Positions 8,191-12,922 of a DNA stretch of 64,000 nucleotides are shown here, piece by piece. Location of the stretch: assembly GCF_006094435.1 (NCBI RefSeq), contig NZ_CP034783.1, positions 3,623,001 to 3,687,000 on the forward strand, read 5' to 3'. Position numbers and translations under genes: made by a program. The stretch's first letter is position 1; each line of letters starts with the position of its first letter. This DNA comes from Pseudomonas sp. MPC6. GTDB taxonomy: Bacteria > Pseudomonadota > Gammaproteobacteria > Pseudomonadales > Pseudomonadaceae. The notes below the pieces were generated by a model. The model was given only the letters and a program-made list of their open reading frames with translations, did not search any database and was not told the DNA's origin.

Positions 8191-8225
8191 TAGTTCGGGA
8201 TACGTTATAACTCCCCCCCGAACTA
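8191..8225. terminator. Inverted repeat between convergent genes
   Basis: TAGTTCGGG (8191-8199) and CCCGAACTA (8217-8225) form a perfect 9-bp stem over an 18-nt loop. It sits between the RHS gene and the convergent TetR gene, whose stop codon lies inside the right arm. There is no long T-run, so terminator function is inferred from position only. Confidence 0.4.
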
Positions 8226-8843
8226 CGGCTCCAACCCAATCCCCCGCAATATCACACTGGTCACCGTCTGTACCGCCCGCTCGAACTGCATGTCCGACAA
8301 CGGCTGATGATCATTCAAAATATTCACCTGATGATCAAAATCCGCATAATGCTGAGTCGACGCCCAGATCATATACAGCAAGCTCGAAGGCTCCACCGGC
8401 AGGATGCGTTTGTCCTCCACCCACTGGCGGATTTTCGCTTCTTTCATCTTGGCCCAGTCGTACAGGCTGGCGTCCAGTTTCTCGCCCAGGGTCGGCGCGC
8501 CGTGGATGATTTCGTTGGCCCAGACTTTTGAGCCATAAGGCCGGCTGCGGGAGTGGTTCATCTTGGCGCGGATGTAGCTGCTGAGGACCACCCGTGGGTC
8601 GTCGAACATCTCGAAGCACAGGGCGTCCTGTTTCCAGACTTCGAGCAGGTCGAACAGCACGGCGCTGTACAGCTCGCTCTTGGTGCTGAAGTAGTAATGC
8701 AGGTTGGAACGCGGCAGTTGCACCTCGGCGGCGATGTCGGCCATGGCGGTGCTGCCGAAGCCTTTTTCGGCGAAGACCTTTTCGGCCCCCAGCAGAATTT
8801 TCTCGACGTTACTGCGGCGGATCTCGATCTTGTGATTGCCCAT
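8223..8843 (-). CDS. TetR-family regulator, RutR-like
   Basis: 206 aa from ATG 8843 (GGGAG upstream); conserved sequence begins there. An N-terminal helix-turn-helix (STAMADIAAEVQLPRSNLHYYF) is followed by a ligand domain of the E. coli RutR (YcdC) type; the stretch IWASTQHYADF is shared with RutR as I recall it. RutR senses uracil/thymine and controls pyrimidine genes. The nearby reductive pyrimidine cluster makes a PydR-like role the leading inference, although the RHS gene and a REP pair separate it from its presumed targets. It could instead control unseen genes. Confidence 0.82.
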   Translation of the reverse strand: MGNHKIEIRRSNVEKILLGAEKVFAEKGFGSTAMADIAAEVQLPRSNLHYYFSTKSELYSAVLFDLLEVWKQDALCFEMFDDPRVVLSSYIRAKMNHSRSRPYGSKVWANEIIHGAPTLGEKLDASLYDWAKMKEAKIRQWVEDKRILPVEPSSLLYMIWASTQHYADFDHQVNILNDHQPLSDMQFERAVQTVTSVILRGIGLEP

Positions 8844-8988
8844 GAGGGCTCCCTGGCAACAGCATTGGCCAAGACTAGCATCCGCTCTACTTAGGGGCGA
8901 CAGGGGAAAACGAATCTTCCTACGCCCGGTTTCATGCTCATGCAGGTAAACTGCCCGCCTCTTCGAACCTGCCTCTGAGGTATCCACG

Positions 8989-9354
8989 ATGCTGCTCAAG
9001 AACGCCCTGACCACCGCCGCCCTCCTCGGCGCCCTGTTCGCCGCCTCATCGGTGTTGGCCCATGCCCATTTGAAAAGCCAGACCCCGGCCGCCGACAGCA
9101 CCGTCAACGCACCGTCGGAACTGCGCCTGGTGTTTTCCGAAGGCATCGAAGCAACCTTCACCAAGGTCACCCTCAGCAAGGACGGCGCCGCGGTTCCGGT
9201 GAAAAGCCTGGCCACCGAAGGCAGCGATAAAAAGACCCTGGTGGTGACCCCGGCGGCGCCATTGGCGGCCGGTTCGTACAAAGTCGAGTGGCATGCGGTG
9301 TCGGTCGATACCCACAAAAGCGAAGGCGCCTACAGCTTCAAGGTTGGCCAGTAA
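8989..9354 (+). CDS. copC: CopC-type periplasmic copper-binding protein
   Basis: 121 aa: signal peptide (LLKNALTTAALLGALFAASSVLA) cleaved before HAHLKSQTPA, so the mature protein begins with the N-terminal His used for Cu(II). A beta-sandwich CopC domain follows with LVFSEGIE, DGAAVPV and a C-terminal VEWHAVSVDTHKSEGAYSF block carrying the second His/Asp/His ligand set. Methionine-rich Cu(I) sites of plasmid-borne CopC are absent. It ends 3 bp before copD, forming a two-gene copper handling operon; no regulator adjoins. Confidence 0.92.
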   Translation: MLLKNALTTAALLGALFAASSVLAHAHLKSQTPAADSTVNAPSELRLVFSEGIEATFTKVTLSKDGAAVPVKSLATEGSDKKTLVVTPAAPLAAGSYKVEWHAVSVDTHKSEGAYSFKVGQ

Positions 9355-9357
9355 TTC

Positions 9358-10215
9358 ATGACGAGTGCGATGGTGCTGTGCCGTTTCCTGCATTTCACCG
9401 TGGTGTTGATGCTGTTTGGAGCCTGGATTTTCAAGCCTTTGCTGTTGGGCCGCGAAACTGCTTTGGACCGGCCTCTGGCGCGGATCAGCCGGTGGCTGGC
9501 AGGGGTGGCGTTGCTCAGTGGCGTCGGCTGGTTGTTGCTGATCACCGCCAGCATGGCCGGCTCCTGGACGGCGGCATTCGATCCGTCGACCCTGGAGCTG
9601 GTGTTGGACAAGACGTTTTTCGGTCAGGTCTGGCGCTGGCATTTGCTGCTCAATCTGCTGTTGCTGGCGTTGCTGTTCACGCCGCTGCATAGCAGCCTGC
9701 CCTGGCGGATAGTCTTGAGCGGCCTGTTGCTGGCGACATTGGCCCCGGTTGGCCATGGCGCCATGCTCGACGGCAACGCAGGCCGGTTACTGATCTTCAA
9801 CCAGGTCATTCACCTGACCTGCGTCGGCGCCTGGCTCGGCGGGTTGATGGTGTTGGTGATGATCCTGCTGCGACCAGACACACACTCCGTCAAAGCGCTA
9901 TTGCAGCGCTTCAGCGGTGTCGGTTATGCGTTGGTGGCCGGGTTGCTCATCACCGGCTTGATTAATGTGCGGGTATTGACCGGGGCGTTCTGGCCAACGC
10001 CATTGTTGAGTGGATTTGCTTTGATTCTGTTGATCAAGGTGGTGCTGGTGGGCGCGATGCTGGGGTTGGCGCTGTTCAATCGGTTGCGGATCAGGGATTG
10101 CGAGCGGCGCATGACGGCGTTGCGTGCCAGTGTGATGCTGGAGTGGTTGCTGGGGATTGGGGCGGTGGCTGCGGTTTCGCTGCTCGGTACCTTGCCGCCA
10201 ATGATCATCAACTGA
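9358..10215 (+). CDS. copD: CopD-family inner-membrane copper protein
   Basis: 285 aa with about eight hydrophobic helices. Conserved family positions are visible: CRFLHFTVVLMLFGAWIF near the N-terminus (His in helix 1), VWRWHLLLN, PVGHGAML and NQVIHLTCVGAWLGGL, giving several intramembrane His residues. Known partner of CopC; proposed to move copper across the inner membrane. ATG follows the copC stop directly, indicating coupling. Confidence 0.9.
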   Translation: MTSAMVLCRFLHFTVVLMLFGAWIFKPLLLGRETALDRPLARISRWLAGVALLSGVGWLLLITASMAGSWTAAFDPSTLELVLDKTFFGQVWRWHLLLNLLLLALLFTPLHSSLPWRIVLSGLLLATLAPVGHGAMLDGNAGRLLIFNQVIHLTCVGAWLGGLMVLVMILLRPDTHSVKALLQRFSGVGYALVAGLLITGLINVRVLTGAFWPTPLLSGFALILLIKVVLVGAMLGLALFNRLRIRDCERRMTALRASVMLEWLLGIGAVAAVSLLGTLPPMIIN

Positions 10216-10220
10216 AATAC

Positions 10221-10235
10221 GCCCCCCTGTAGGAG
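10221..10235. repeat. Left half of a REP interrupted by the IS110 element
   Basis: CCCCCTGTAGGAG is the beginning of the standard REP; its continuation (CTGGCTTGCCAGCGAAGGC) resumes at 11402, on the other side of the insertion element. Joining the halves restores the usual TGTAGGAG-CTGGCTTGCC sequence. Confidence 0.85.
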
Positions 10236-10238
10236 ATT

Positions 10239-11201
10239 CTATGTTTGGGGGGAAGCCCCAAAAACTGGATTTGGCTGATATTCGCTCTGGTTCTTCATCA
10301 GGGCGAATGCCACCCGTGCCAGCTTGCGAGCCAGGATGACCAGCACTTGAGTCGTCTTTAATCCCCGCTCCAGATAGCGTTCGTAAAACGGCTTCCAGGT
10401 CTTTGAGCGACTGGCAGCCATCGCCGCGTTATGCAGCAGGCGCCGTATCTCTGAGTCACCTTTCTTGGTCAGCTTTCGACGTCCGTTCATCTGCCCCGAA
10501 TCAGAGACTCTCAAATCCATTCCAAGAAACGCGATATAGGCGTCACCACTGGCGAAGTCGCCACGTTGAAATGCCATCGTCAGTGCGGTGGCGGTAAGAA
10601 AACCGACCCCCTCTACGGCCTGGCAGCGTTTGACTTGCTCGAGCAGACCCGCCTCTTTTACGACGTCCAACAGCTTCTTCTGGATGAGTAAATCCAATCG
10701 GCCCATGGCAGCGATCTGTTGTTTGAATGCCGCTTTCAGCAGCGGTTCGTCGTTCCAGCTTTGAGTCAAACTGACACGCGCCTGGACCAATGTCGCTCGT
10801 CTTCGAAGCAGGCTTTGAAGCTTGGTATAGACCTTCGGCGGCGGGCTCCAAGGACGTAGCTCTTCCTCTTCGTTCTTCAAGTAACGCGCCAGTAAACGGG
10901 CGTCGCTGGCATCTGTTTTGGCGCGGCCACCCACTCCTTTGCGGTAATTACTCAAACGGAAGCCGTCGATGACATAGACGGTATGTCCCATTGCATGAGC
11001 CAGCTCAACCGTATCCAGGTGATAGATATTGGTGGCTTCAATAGCGATGGCGCTGTTTGCAGGTAACGTTTTCAGCCACTTTGTAAGAGACGGTTTATCG
11101 TTTGACACGGCCAACAGCAGATCCGTGTCGGCCTGATAGACCACCACTTCGGCCTTGGCGACATCCACTCCGACTACAGAACGCGAGACACTCATTGCCA
11201 C
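10239..11201 (-). CDS. IS110-family transposase (DEDD recombinase)
   Basis: 320 aa counting from GTG 11201 (GGAG 8 nt upstream); ATG 11195 is an alternative. The N-terminal RuvC-like domain shows VGVDVAKAEV, IEATNIYH and KTDASDARLLARY, the expected DEDD acidic residues. The C-terminal transposase-20 domain has the VEGVGFLTATALT helix-hairpin-helix, then YIAFLGMDLRVSDSG and KGDSEIRRLLHNAAM, which contain the conserved serine region. The frame is intact and its stop codon lies at the very end of the element, so it appears functional. Confidence 0.95.
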   Translation of the reverse strand: MAMSVSRSVVGVDVAKAEVVVYQADTDLLLAVSNDKPSLTKWLKTLPANSAIAIEATNIYHLDTVELAHAMGHTVYVIDGFRLSNYRKGVGGRAKTDASDARLLARYLKNEEEELRPWSPPPKVYTKLQSLLRRRATLVQARVSLTQSWNDEPLLKAAFKQQIAAMGRLDLLIQKKLLDVVKEAGLLEQVKRCQAVEGVGFLTATALTMAFQRGDFASGDAYIAFLGMDLRVSDSGQMNGRRKLTKKGDSEIRRLLHNAAMAASRSKTWKPFYERYLERGLKTTQVLVILARKLARVAFALMKNQSEYQPNPVFGASPQT

Positions 11202-11399
11202 AAAGAAAGCTCCGGGTTAGGGTTTAAAGGCTTGTCGGGGCTTCACCATTGCGCTGGCTTGCTTCTATCGTCGGTCATGGCCGATGCATTCCTTATCGGC
11301 GCTTTGGTGAAGGGGTGGGGCGAAGTCTCCCACGGTCTGTACTGGCTAGAGTCAGATGCTGGCTTTTAGTCCCACCACCCCTACAAGTCTAAACATACA
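11202..11399 (-). ncRNA. Candidate IS110 bridge RNA region (5' non-coding end of the IS)
   Basis: About 198 bp with no ORF upstream of the transposase, the place where IS110-group elements encode the bridge RNA that pairs with target and donor DNA. On the transposase strand, CTTCACCA and TGGTGAAG (plus-strand 11305-11312 and 11241-11248) form an 8-bp stem. It encloses a hairpin GCCGAT/ATCGGC (11280-11300) and a loop containing GCAAGCCAGC (11253-11262), an exact 10-nt copy of the REP target flank present outside the IS at 11401-11410. The RNA ends and the second guide are not determined. Confidence 0.5.
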
Positions 11400-11401
11400 A
11401 G

Positions 11402-11485
11402 CTGGCTTGCCAGCGAAGGCGGTGTGTCAGCCGACATATTTATCGACTGAACGGACGCCTTCGCTGGCAAGCCAGCTCCTACCGG
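11402..11485. repeat. Right half of the interrupted REP plus its inverted partner
   Basis: CTGGCTTGCCAGCGAAGGCG directly after the IS, then ~40 bp, then the inverted unit CTTCGCTGGCAAGCCAGCTCCTACC. Together with 10221-10235 this was an ordinary REP pair before insertion. Confidence 0.88.
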
Positions 11486-11626
11486 GGTCCATCGACATAC
11501 GACCAAAGTCGTTAAGTCATCGTATAACTTCTGATTGACTTTCCCCGAAGCCCTCGCAAATAATCGCCCCATGTTGTACGACGACGTATGACGACAATAA
11601 AAACAAAAAGTAAAGGGAGCGTCACA

Positions 11627-12922
11627 GTGACCAAGCTCGTCCGCAATTCCTCCGTCAGCACCCCTCGTCCTGCCTTCGCACGCCGTCATGCCCTGAGCCT
11701 GATCAGCTTCAGCAGCCTGGCTTTCGCCCTGCCCCTGACCGGCAACGCCGAGGGCTTCGTCGATGACGCCAAGGCCACGCTGAACCTGCGCAACGCCTAC
11801 TTCAATCGCAACTTCACCAACCCGGCCAACGCCCAGGGCAAGGCTGAAGAGTGGACGCAAAGCTTCATCCTCGACGCGAAGTCAGGGTTCACCCCGGGAC
11901 CTGTCGGTTTTGGCGTAGACGTGCTCGGTATGTACTCGCAGAAGCTTGACGGTGGCCAAGGCACCGGCGGCACGCAGTTGTTGCCGATCCATGACGACGG
12001 TCGCCCTGCTGACAATTTCGGGCGACTGGGTGTGGCGCTGAAAGGCAAAATCTCGAAGACCGAAGTGAAGGTCGGCGAATGGATGCCGGTGCTGCCGATC
12101 CTGCGCGCCGACGACGGCCGTTCCCTGCCGCAGACCTTTCGCGGTGGCCAGGTGACCTCGACCGAGATCAGCGGCCTGACGCTCTACGGCGGTCAGTTCC
12201 GTGCCAACAGCCCGCGCAACGACGCGAGCATGGAAGACATGTTCATGAACGGCAAGGCCGCCTTCACGTCAGACCGCTTCAACTTCGGCGGCGGTGAATA
12301 CGCGTTCAACGACAAGCGCACCCAGGTCGGTGTCTGGTATGCGGAACTCAGCGACATCTATCAGCAGCAGTATTTCAACCTGAGCCACAGCCAGCCCCTC
12401 GGCGACTGGACCCTCGGCGCCAACCTCGGGTACTTCATCGGCAAGGAAGACGGCAGCGCCCTGGCCGGCGACCTCGACAACAAAACCGCATTCGCCCTGC
12501 TCTCGGCCAAGTACGGCGGCAACACCTTCTATGTCGGCCTGCAAAAGCTCAGCGGCGACGATGTCTGGATGCGGGTCAACGGCACCAGCGGCGGCACCCT
12601 GGCCAACGATAGTTACAACGCCAGCTATGACAACGCCAAGGAAAAATCCTGGCAACTGCGCCACGACTACAACTTCGTCGCCCTCGGTGTTCCCGGACTG
12701 ACCATGATGAACCGCTACATCAGCGGCGATAACGTGCACACCGGCACGATCACCGACGGCAAGGAATGGGGCCGCGAATCGGAGCTGGCCTACACCGTGC
12801 AGAGCGGCGCGCTGAAAAACCTCAACGTCAAATGGCGCAACGCGAGCATCCGCCGGGATTTCAGTACCAACGAATTCGATGAGAACCGGATTTTCATCAG
12901 CTATCCGCTTTCGTTGTTGTAG
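11627..12922 (+). CDS. OprD-family outer-membrane porin
   Basis: 431 aa from GTG 11627, chosen because AAAGGGAG lies 7 nt upstream; an ATG 39 bp earlier lacks a ribosome site. A signal peptide (FSSLAFALPLTGNAEG) precedes mature GFVDDAKATLNLRNAYFNR, the classic OprD N-terminus. GRPADNFGRLGVALKGKISKTEVKVGEWMPVLPILRADDGRSLPQTFRG is the usual eyelet-loop block. The C-terminus is a beta strand ending SYPLSLL. OprD porins admit carboxylates or amino acids; the neighbours suggest uronates or aldarates. The TAG stop is supplied by the REP that follows (TGTAGGAGC). Confidence 0.93.
   Translation: MTKLVRNSSVSTPRPAFARRHALSLISFSSLAFALPLTGNAEGFVDDAKATLNLRNAYFNRNFTNPANAQGKAEEWTQSFILDAKSGFTPGPVGFGVDVLGMYSQKLDGGQGTGGTQLLPIHDDGRPADNFGRLGVALKGKISKTEVKVGEWMPVLPILRADDGRSLPQTFRGGQVTSTEISGLTLYGGQFRANSPRNDASMEDMFMNGKAAFTSDRFNFGGGEYAFNDKRTQVGVWYAELSDIYQQQYFNLSHSQPLGDWTLGANLGYFIGKEDGSALAGDLDNKTAFALLSAKYGGNTFYVGLQKLSGDDVWMRVNGTSGGTLANDSYNASYDNAKEKSWQLRHDYNFVALGVPGLTMMNRYISGDNVHTGTITDGKEWGRESELAYTVQSGALKNLNVKWRNASIRRDFSTNEFDENRIFISYPLSLL

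Follow-up and report, generated by a model that had tools for sequence, protein, structure and literature searches.

Three insertion sequences, ISPpu9, ISPpu10 and ISPa11, were described in 2006 as targeting REPs; for ISPpu10 of Pseudomonas putida, 7/7 copies were located in REPs at a single position and with a 2-bp repeat (PMC1525189). ISPpu10 is also one of six elements for which Durrant et al. (2024) drew a bridge RNA with its guides, target and donor (PMC11208160, legend of Extended Data Fig. 10), and Siddiquee et al. (2024) described seekRNAs, including that of ISPa11, a REP-targeting element of the IS1111 group (PMC11187229). For ISPpu9, a long leader and two small RNAs regulating the transposase have been described (PMC8450116). 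In the published work on IS621 of E. coli, the bridge RNA consists, in this order, of a 5' stem-loop, a target loop and a donor loop, and each loop is built of a stem, a left guide, a stem-loop and a right guide. Pairing is with the bottom strand for the 5' side of each loop and with the top strand for the 3' side, and the right donor guide pairs discontiguously (AU + CAAG against CTTG..AT); an altered 5' stem-loop slightly reduced recombination (PMC11208158). ATA/TAT repeats around the donor have been published for IS110 elements (PMC11208160).

Here we analysed an IS110-group element in a stretch of 64,000 nucleotides of the Pseudomonas sp. MPC6 genome (the window). The element is close to ISPpu10, and we are highly confident that its upstream region encodes a bridge RNA, both loops of which would guide recombination at CT. 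The general idea of a preliminary description of this DNA, an IS110 element whose bridge RNA would be programmed for REPs, is well supported, with the guides of the upstream loop following the target. The downstream loop, which that description had taken for the target guide, very probably has another role.

The element, its recombinase and its insertion sites

The element is 1,168 bp long, including the CT core at both ends (Table 1). Eleven copies of the same extent are present in the Pseudomonas sp. MPC6 genome, with 0-2 base differences from the window copy and no differences between the window copy and the others in the first 200 bases. All 11 are located in REPs, with the flanks AAGCCAG-CT-CCTAC (six copies), AAGCCAG-CT-CCCAC (one copy) and AAGCCCG-CT-CCCAC (four copies). 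When the window junctions were re-read (GGCAAGCCAG on one side, CCTACAG on the other, CT at each element end), the CT cores were found within REP sequence at both junctions, as first described. ATA/TAT repeats flank the donor, ATAGAAT-CT-TGTAT. About 200 nt at the left end, upstream of the gene, are non-coding; the right end is short, and the stop codon of the recombinase gene falls within the terminal ATAGAATCT.

The recombinase contains the domains PF01548 and PF02371, scores above the cut-off of the NF033542 model ('IS110 family RNA-guided transposase') and aligns with the PDB chains of ISCro4 (E 7.6e-21) and IS621 (E 2.8e-20). Residues D13, E55, D97, D100 and S235 were placed by motif and by the IS621 alignment; the DEDD RuvC and Tnp domains and the conserved serine of the IS110 group are thus present. 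S235 would correspond to S241 of IS621 if the numbering of the PDB chain runs two residues above that of the paper. A 98% identical protein cluster in nr bears the name ISPpu10, which is a database label; the element is most likely an ISPpu10 isoform.

By eye, the neighbours are presumably a copC-like gene and a copD-like gene (window 8223-10215), followed by the element and then by an OprD-like porin gene (11588-12922). The element lies 18 bp past the stop codon of the gene named copD-like by eye. Six shorter matches in the own genome (L012-L017), each to one end only, are isolated ends, right or left, of a related IS110 element; L016 and L017, both left ends, lie within other REP variants and, by eye, break off after about 27-31 nt, and a further match, near own-genome position 4654125, may be another such end. 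Plasmid records gave no match at megablast sensitivity, a search in which records very near the window's genome may be left out. A hairpin at the right end was rejected as a general feature: many of 48 distinct right ends have it, and in others it is weak or missing. In the window, an example of such a hairpin (GTTGCAGGG...CCCTGCAAC, 10244-10262) stands directly before the terminal ATAGAATCT and overlaps the gene end.

Table 1. Positions in the window of the element, its recombinase gene, its target and the parts of its predicted bridge RNA.
Feature	Position	Strand	Basis or remark
IS110-group element (ISPpu10-like), CT core at each end	10234..11401	minus	11 same-extent genome copies, REP flanks
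REP target, left half GGCAAGCCAG	11402..11411	minus	junction reading, flank comparison
REP target, right half CCTAC	10229..10233	minus	junction reading, flank comparison
IS110 recombinase, 320 aa	10239..11201	minus	domains, NCBI model, PDB alignments
Predicted core of the bridge RNA, with the target-binding loop preceding the donor-binding loop	11236..11381	minus	29-pair structure, 24 relatives
Target-binding loop, outer stem, 5' arm	11375..11381	minus	helix 1
Left target guide AAGCCAG, identical to left half of target	11359..11365	minus	follows target across homologues
Stem-loop between target guides	11336..11356	minus	helix 2; 4/7 pairs changed on both sides
Right target guide GTGGGAG	11327..11333	minus	complementary to CTCCCAC; to CTCCTAC with one G-T wobble
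Target-binding loop, outer stem, 3' arm	11312..11318	minus	helix 1
Donor-binding loop, outer stem, 5' arm (stem of the preliminary description)	11305..11311	minus	helix 3
Inner stem GCGC, 5' arm	11299..11302	minus	4/4 pairs changed on both sides
Left donor guide (putative) AAGGAATGC	11286..11294	minus	against right end ATAGAAT-CT
Stem-loop between donor guides (TCGG...CCGA)	11271..11284	minus	helix 4; 4/4 pairs changed on both sides
Right donor guide (putative) ATAGAAGCAAG	11258..11268	minus	AT...CAAG against left end CTTGTAT, discontiguous
10-nt 'target copy' of the preliminary description, GCAAGCCAGC	11253..11262	minus	right donor guide, handshake position and start of inner stem (putative)
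Inner stem GCGC, 3' arm, overlapping the end of GCAAGCCAGC	11251..11254	minus	4/4 pairs changed on both sides
Donor-binding loop, outer stem, 3' arm	11242..11248	minus	helix 3

Target guides in the upstream loop

Relatives were collected by protein, comprising 57 loci from genome contigs, matches in 44 of 298 genomes of the genus and matches in 8 of 369 genomes of the class (own genome included in both counts); further copies of the element were added by position. From the 219 loci, 69 were kept out of the search for ends, namely remnants or duplicates (L012-L033) and fragments (L044-L090). The 150 loci searched yielded 142 elements in 140 loci, two of which hold two elements each; the end pair was not within reach in the other ten (L039, L040, L184, L202-L207, L211). 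The usual left end is present in L202-L207 and L211, and the right end is found at a greater distance in L211 and in the three G080 copies examined, all outside the counts. For G080 copies (L202-L207, L220-L222) we further observed a right end about 240 bp past the protein match (one copy measured), a REP-like palindrome between the two, and AGCCGCC within both the left guide and the target GCAAGCCGCC. Guide tests were performed on 140 elements after removal of L043 (without left flank) and L095 (RNA region broken). There were 51 distinct RNA regions and 75 distinct RNA-target pairs, the latter being free of duplicates that arise where one place is held via two collections (e.g. L035/L093/L129).

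Over the 75 pairs, guide and target agreed at 5.83 of 7 positions for the left guide (upstream loop), compared with 4.51 upon permutation, and none of 10,000 permutations was as high. The right guide agreed at 4.95 of 5 non-core bases, compared with 4.68 upon permutation (0/10,000), a test that rests on few lineages (L185, L214, L217, L218, L219) because the guide is constant in most rows. The preliminary description had placed the target guide in the downstream loop, where GCAAGCCAGC, read on the transposase strand, does indeed repeat exactly the target flank and the first base of the core. This 10-mer did not follow the target: it agreed at 6.63 of 10 positions against 6.66 upon permutation, and 7,490 of 10,000 permutations were as high. 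With one row per RNA (n = 49), 0, 0 and 8,929 of 10,000 permutations were as high for the left guide, the right guide and the 10-mer, respectively. Consistent results were obtained free of any alignment from the longest word shared with the target, for which 0/2,000 permutations were as high in the upstream half and 893/2,000 in the downstream half.

A left-guide match at 6 or 7 of 7 positions was found in 35 of 50 guide/target combinations and in 116 of 140 elements; the right guide reached 6 or 7 of 7 in all 50 combinations, 46 of them at 7. Among the 15 combinations with a left-guide match below 6, the alignment is shifted in L100, L143, L218, L219 and probably L215, the targets are shifted or degenerate in L166 and L168, L035, L094, L097, L130, L137, L213 and L216 have 2-4 mismatches each, and in L110 the left flank bears no resemblance to a target. 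This L110 flank is not REP-like either and partly repeats the right flank; it may belong to a rearranged copy. The right guide changes with the target in L185, L214 and L217 (CCTAC/GTAGGAG) and in L219 (CATCG/CGATGAG). Covariation of the upstream loop with the target is thus seen on both strands. Mutual information per column was dominated by clade-specific columns downstream of the RNA and placed the expected guide column on top only for target positions -6, -3, -2 and +5.

Such agreement might also stem from the common descent of elements and their hosts instead of from pairing, given that related elements occur in related hosts with similar REPs and that guides are clustered on the recombinase tree (16 changes against 32.4 when shuffled). 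The donor loop has the same ancestry, yet it shows no association with the target. Moreover, the 49 RNAs hold 20 different left guides (alignment columns; the left guide of L100 was reset by hand for a one-base alignment shift, and L215, L218 and L219 were counted as aligned), and AAGCCCG, AGGCTCG and AAGCTCG require 5, 5 and 6 changes on the tree. Since right guide and target also change together in the separate lineages L185, L214, L217 and L219, we regard common descent as a very improbable cause of the agreement. Equally remote is recognition of the REP by the recombinase alone, with the non-coding region serving as a regulatory leader. The leader and small RNAs of ISPpu9 (PMC8450116) provide a precedent for it; protein-only recognition leaves no place, however, for the agreement between guides and target on both strands, and the recombinase is homologous to that of IS621, whose RNA guidance is shown.

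The predicted fold and the role of the downstream loop

Fold statistics were obtained for 24 representative RNAs, chosen by hand from the 51 distinct ones. In the two-loop structure, 85.6% of cells were paired and 19 of 29 pairs were changed on both sides, and 0/500 shuffles were as good on either measure. Helix 3, in which the outer stem and the inner stem of the downstream loop are taken together, was paired in just 76.6% of cells. Unaided, RNAalifold recovered two helices of the upstream loop (its outer stem and the stem-loop separating the target guides) as well as the inner GCGC stem; the donor stem-loop and the outer donor stem were not found by this program. The donor stem-loop (at least 3 of 4 pairs) occurred in 11 of 24 single-sequence folds and is absent from the minimum-energy fold of the window element. 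A search of Rfam returned six matches up to E 10, none of which reached the gathering score of its family. The predicted RNA displays two stem-loops with internal loops, of which the first is variable and the second conserved. Covariation thus strongly supports the two-loop fold as predicted, and with it a conserved RNA structure across homologues, the lack of which the preliminary description had named as speaking against its proposal.

Other parts of that description concerned the downstream loop. Its 8-bp stem (11241-11248 with 11305-11312) is complementary, as stated. The words GCCGAT and ATCGGC within it are both present; the hairpin they were said to form showed no covariation, with compensatory change at 0/6 pairs, and at least 3 of its 6 pairs were found in the minimum-energy folds of only 2 of 24 relatives. 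The 10-nt identity of GCAAGCCAGC with the window's target had been called unlikely by chance. When the non-coding region was shuffled and any 10-mer shared with the 40-nt target on either strand was counted, 430 of 20,000 dinucleotide shuffles gave such a match; at about 2% it is improbable but not negligible, and these shuffles disregard the invariance of CAAG inside the 10-mer (24/24 aligned relatives). Four elements from other genera (L042, L212, L213, L214) carry GCAAGCCAGC exactly, beside unrelated targets that match it at 4, 4, 3 and 3 of 10 positions, an observation named in advance as speaking against the proposal; their upstream left guides match the targets at 7, 6, 5 and 6 of 7. In addition, GCAAGCCAGC is top-strand sequence and so could pair with the bottom strand only, yet it stands on the 3' side of the loop, where IS110 RNAs pair with the top strand. 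There is, then, scarcely any likelihood that the downstream loop is the target guide. A second flank copy, which the preliminary description did not mention, is the 8-nt AAGCCAGC in the upstream loop (element positions 37-44, window 11358-11365); in the sequences compared it is this copy, and not GCAAGCCAGC, that tracks the target.

By the layout of IS621, GCAAGCCAGC would lie within the donor-binding loop. The 3' side of the downstream loop reads AT-AGAAG-CAAG, which fits the IS621 scheme A157-U158/C162-G165 for the same right donor; GCAAGCCAGC would accordingly hold the core-binding CAAG, the position of the IS621 handshake and two bases of the inner stem. The invariant CAAG (24/24 relatives) is able to base-pair with CTTG at the end of the element itself. 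GAAT of the left donor guide AAGGAAT is likewise invariant (24/24), and GAATCT, which covers the whole core, is found in L212 and L215-L219. Complementarity of the donor loop to the joined ends is present, donors being invariant in this set of elements selected by their ends. We take the likeness of GCAAGCCAGC to the REP as a coincidence built around the invariant CAAG and made easier because six of its positions are fixed or nearly so.

Comparison across relatives thus establishes, for the RNA as predicted, both the fold and the dependence of the two target guides on the target. The further steps are modelled on IS621. The upstream non-coding region would be transcribed into the bridge RNA from a promoter at the circle junction, where the candidate is weak by consensus (at best 7/12 hexamer positions). 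The upstream-loop guides AAGCCAG and GTGGGAG would specify the REP target, and those of the 3', donor-binding loop would pair with the joined ends of the element itself (ATAGAAT-CT-TGTAT). The recombinase would bind the RNA, hold the partners of the target loop and the donor loop, and catalyse recombination of circle and REP at CT. The corrected assignment of the guiding loop decides what has to be edited for re-aiming the element.

REP classes, the Pseudomonas clade and known systems

The own genome contains 922 AAGCCAGCTCCYAC, 371 AAGCCCGCTCCYAC and 304 AAGCTCGCTCCYAC sites, and the many genomic targets foreseen by the preliminary description are thus available. On its left side the guide matches the first class (AAGCCAGCTCCYAC), and on its right side it is complementary to CTCCCAC; of the first-class places listed, two carry CCCAC and the rest CCTAC. 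Flawless guide pairing occurs in only one (L004) of the 11 own copies. Usage by these copies (7:4:0) did not depart significantly from availability (922:371:304), and avoidance of the AAGCTCG class was not significant either (0/11 insertions against 2.1 expected; P about 0.10).

The 51 distinct RNAs fall into two groups by their leader. Forty-two, the window's included, have a 20-nt leader without predicted fold, and their sources are genomes of the window's genus or records with Pseudomonas in the title; the nine from other genera have a leader of 39-48 nt with a predicted hairpin. Because a branch of the recombinase tree (100/100) separates these 42 from all others, a single change of the leader suffices, in a tree whose long outgroup branches were flagged by the program and whose deeper part is unsure. 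We tentatively propose, holding it to be slightly less probable than its contrary, that the bridge RNA of the Pseudomonas clade lost its 5' stem-loop once, which left a minimal two-loop RNA, and that its guide was repeatedly re-programmed to host REP types. In the element studied here, full pairing would require a target that combines two REP subfamilies, with AAGCCAG on the left and CTCCCAC on the right; a single RNA would thus serve both, with one flaw each. Within the open-licence literature, the clade without 5' stem-loop and the repeated guide change are possibly new details. The clade points to the size to which a functional bridge RNA may be reduced, and the 142 elements, whose targets are known and whose left guides number 20, amount to a set of re-programming experiments already performed by nature.

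The kind of system is known, and probably this very element too, in view of the ISPpu10 prediction of Durrant et al. (2024), the seekRNA work and the REP targeting described in 2006. For ISPpu10, the legend cited above already gives a predicted bridge RNA with both guide pairs (PMC11208160), as is proposed here. The seekRNA of ISEc21, an IS110-group element, likewise derives from the upstream non-coding region and defines the target (PMC11187229). In IS1111 elements, by contrast, the RNA is usually encoded downstream of the gene and the subterminal inverted repeats are longer; the non-coding region of the window element lies upstream, and it does not have the long downstream non-coding region of that group. 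With IS621 the element shares recombinase homology, the order and layout of the loops, the CT core, the right donor CTTG..AT and REP targets. It differs from IS621 in three respects: it is without the 5' stem-loop, a typical and non-defining feature; its left target guide agrees with the target over 7 nt and the core C, not the core T; and the gap in its right donor guide is 5 nt, compared with 3 nt in IS621.
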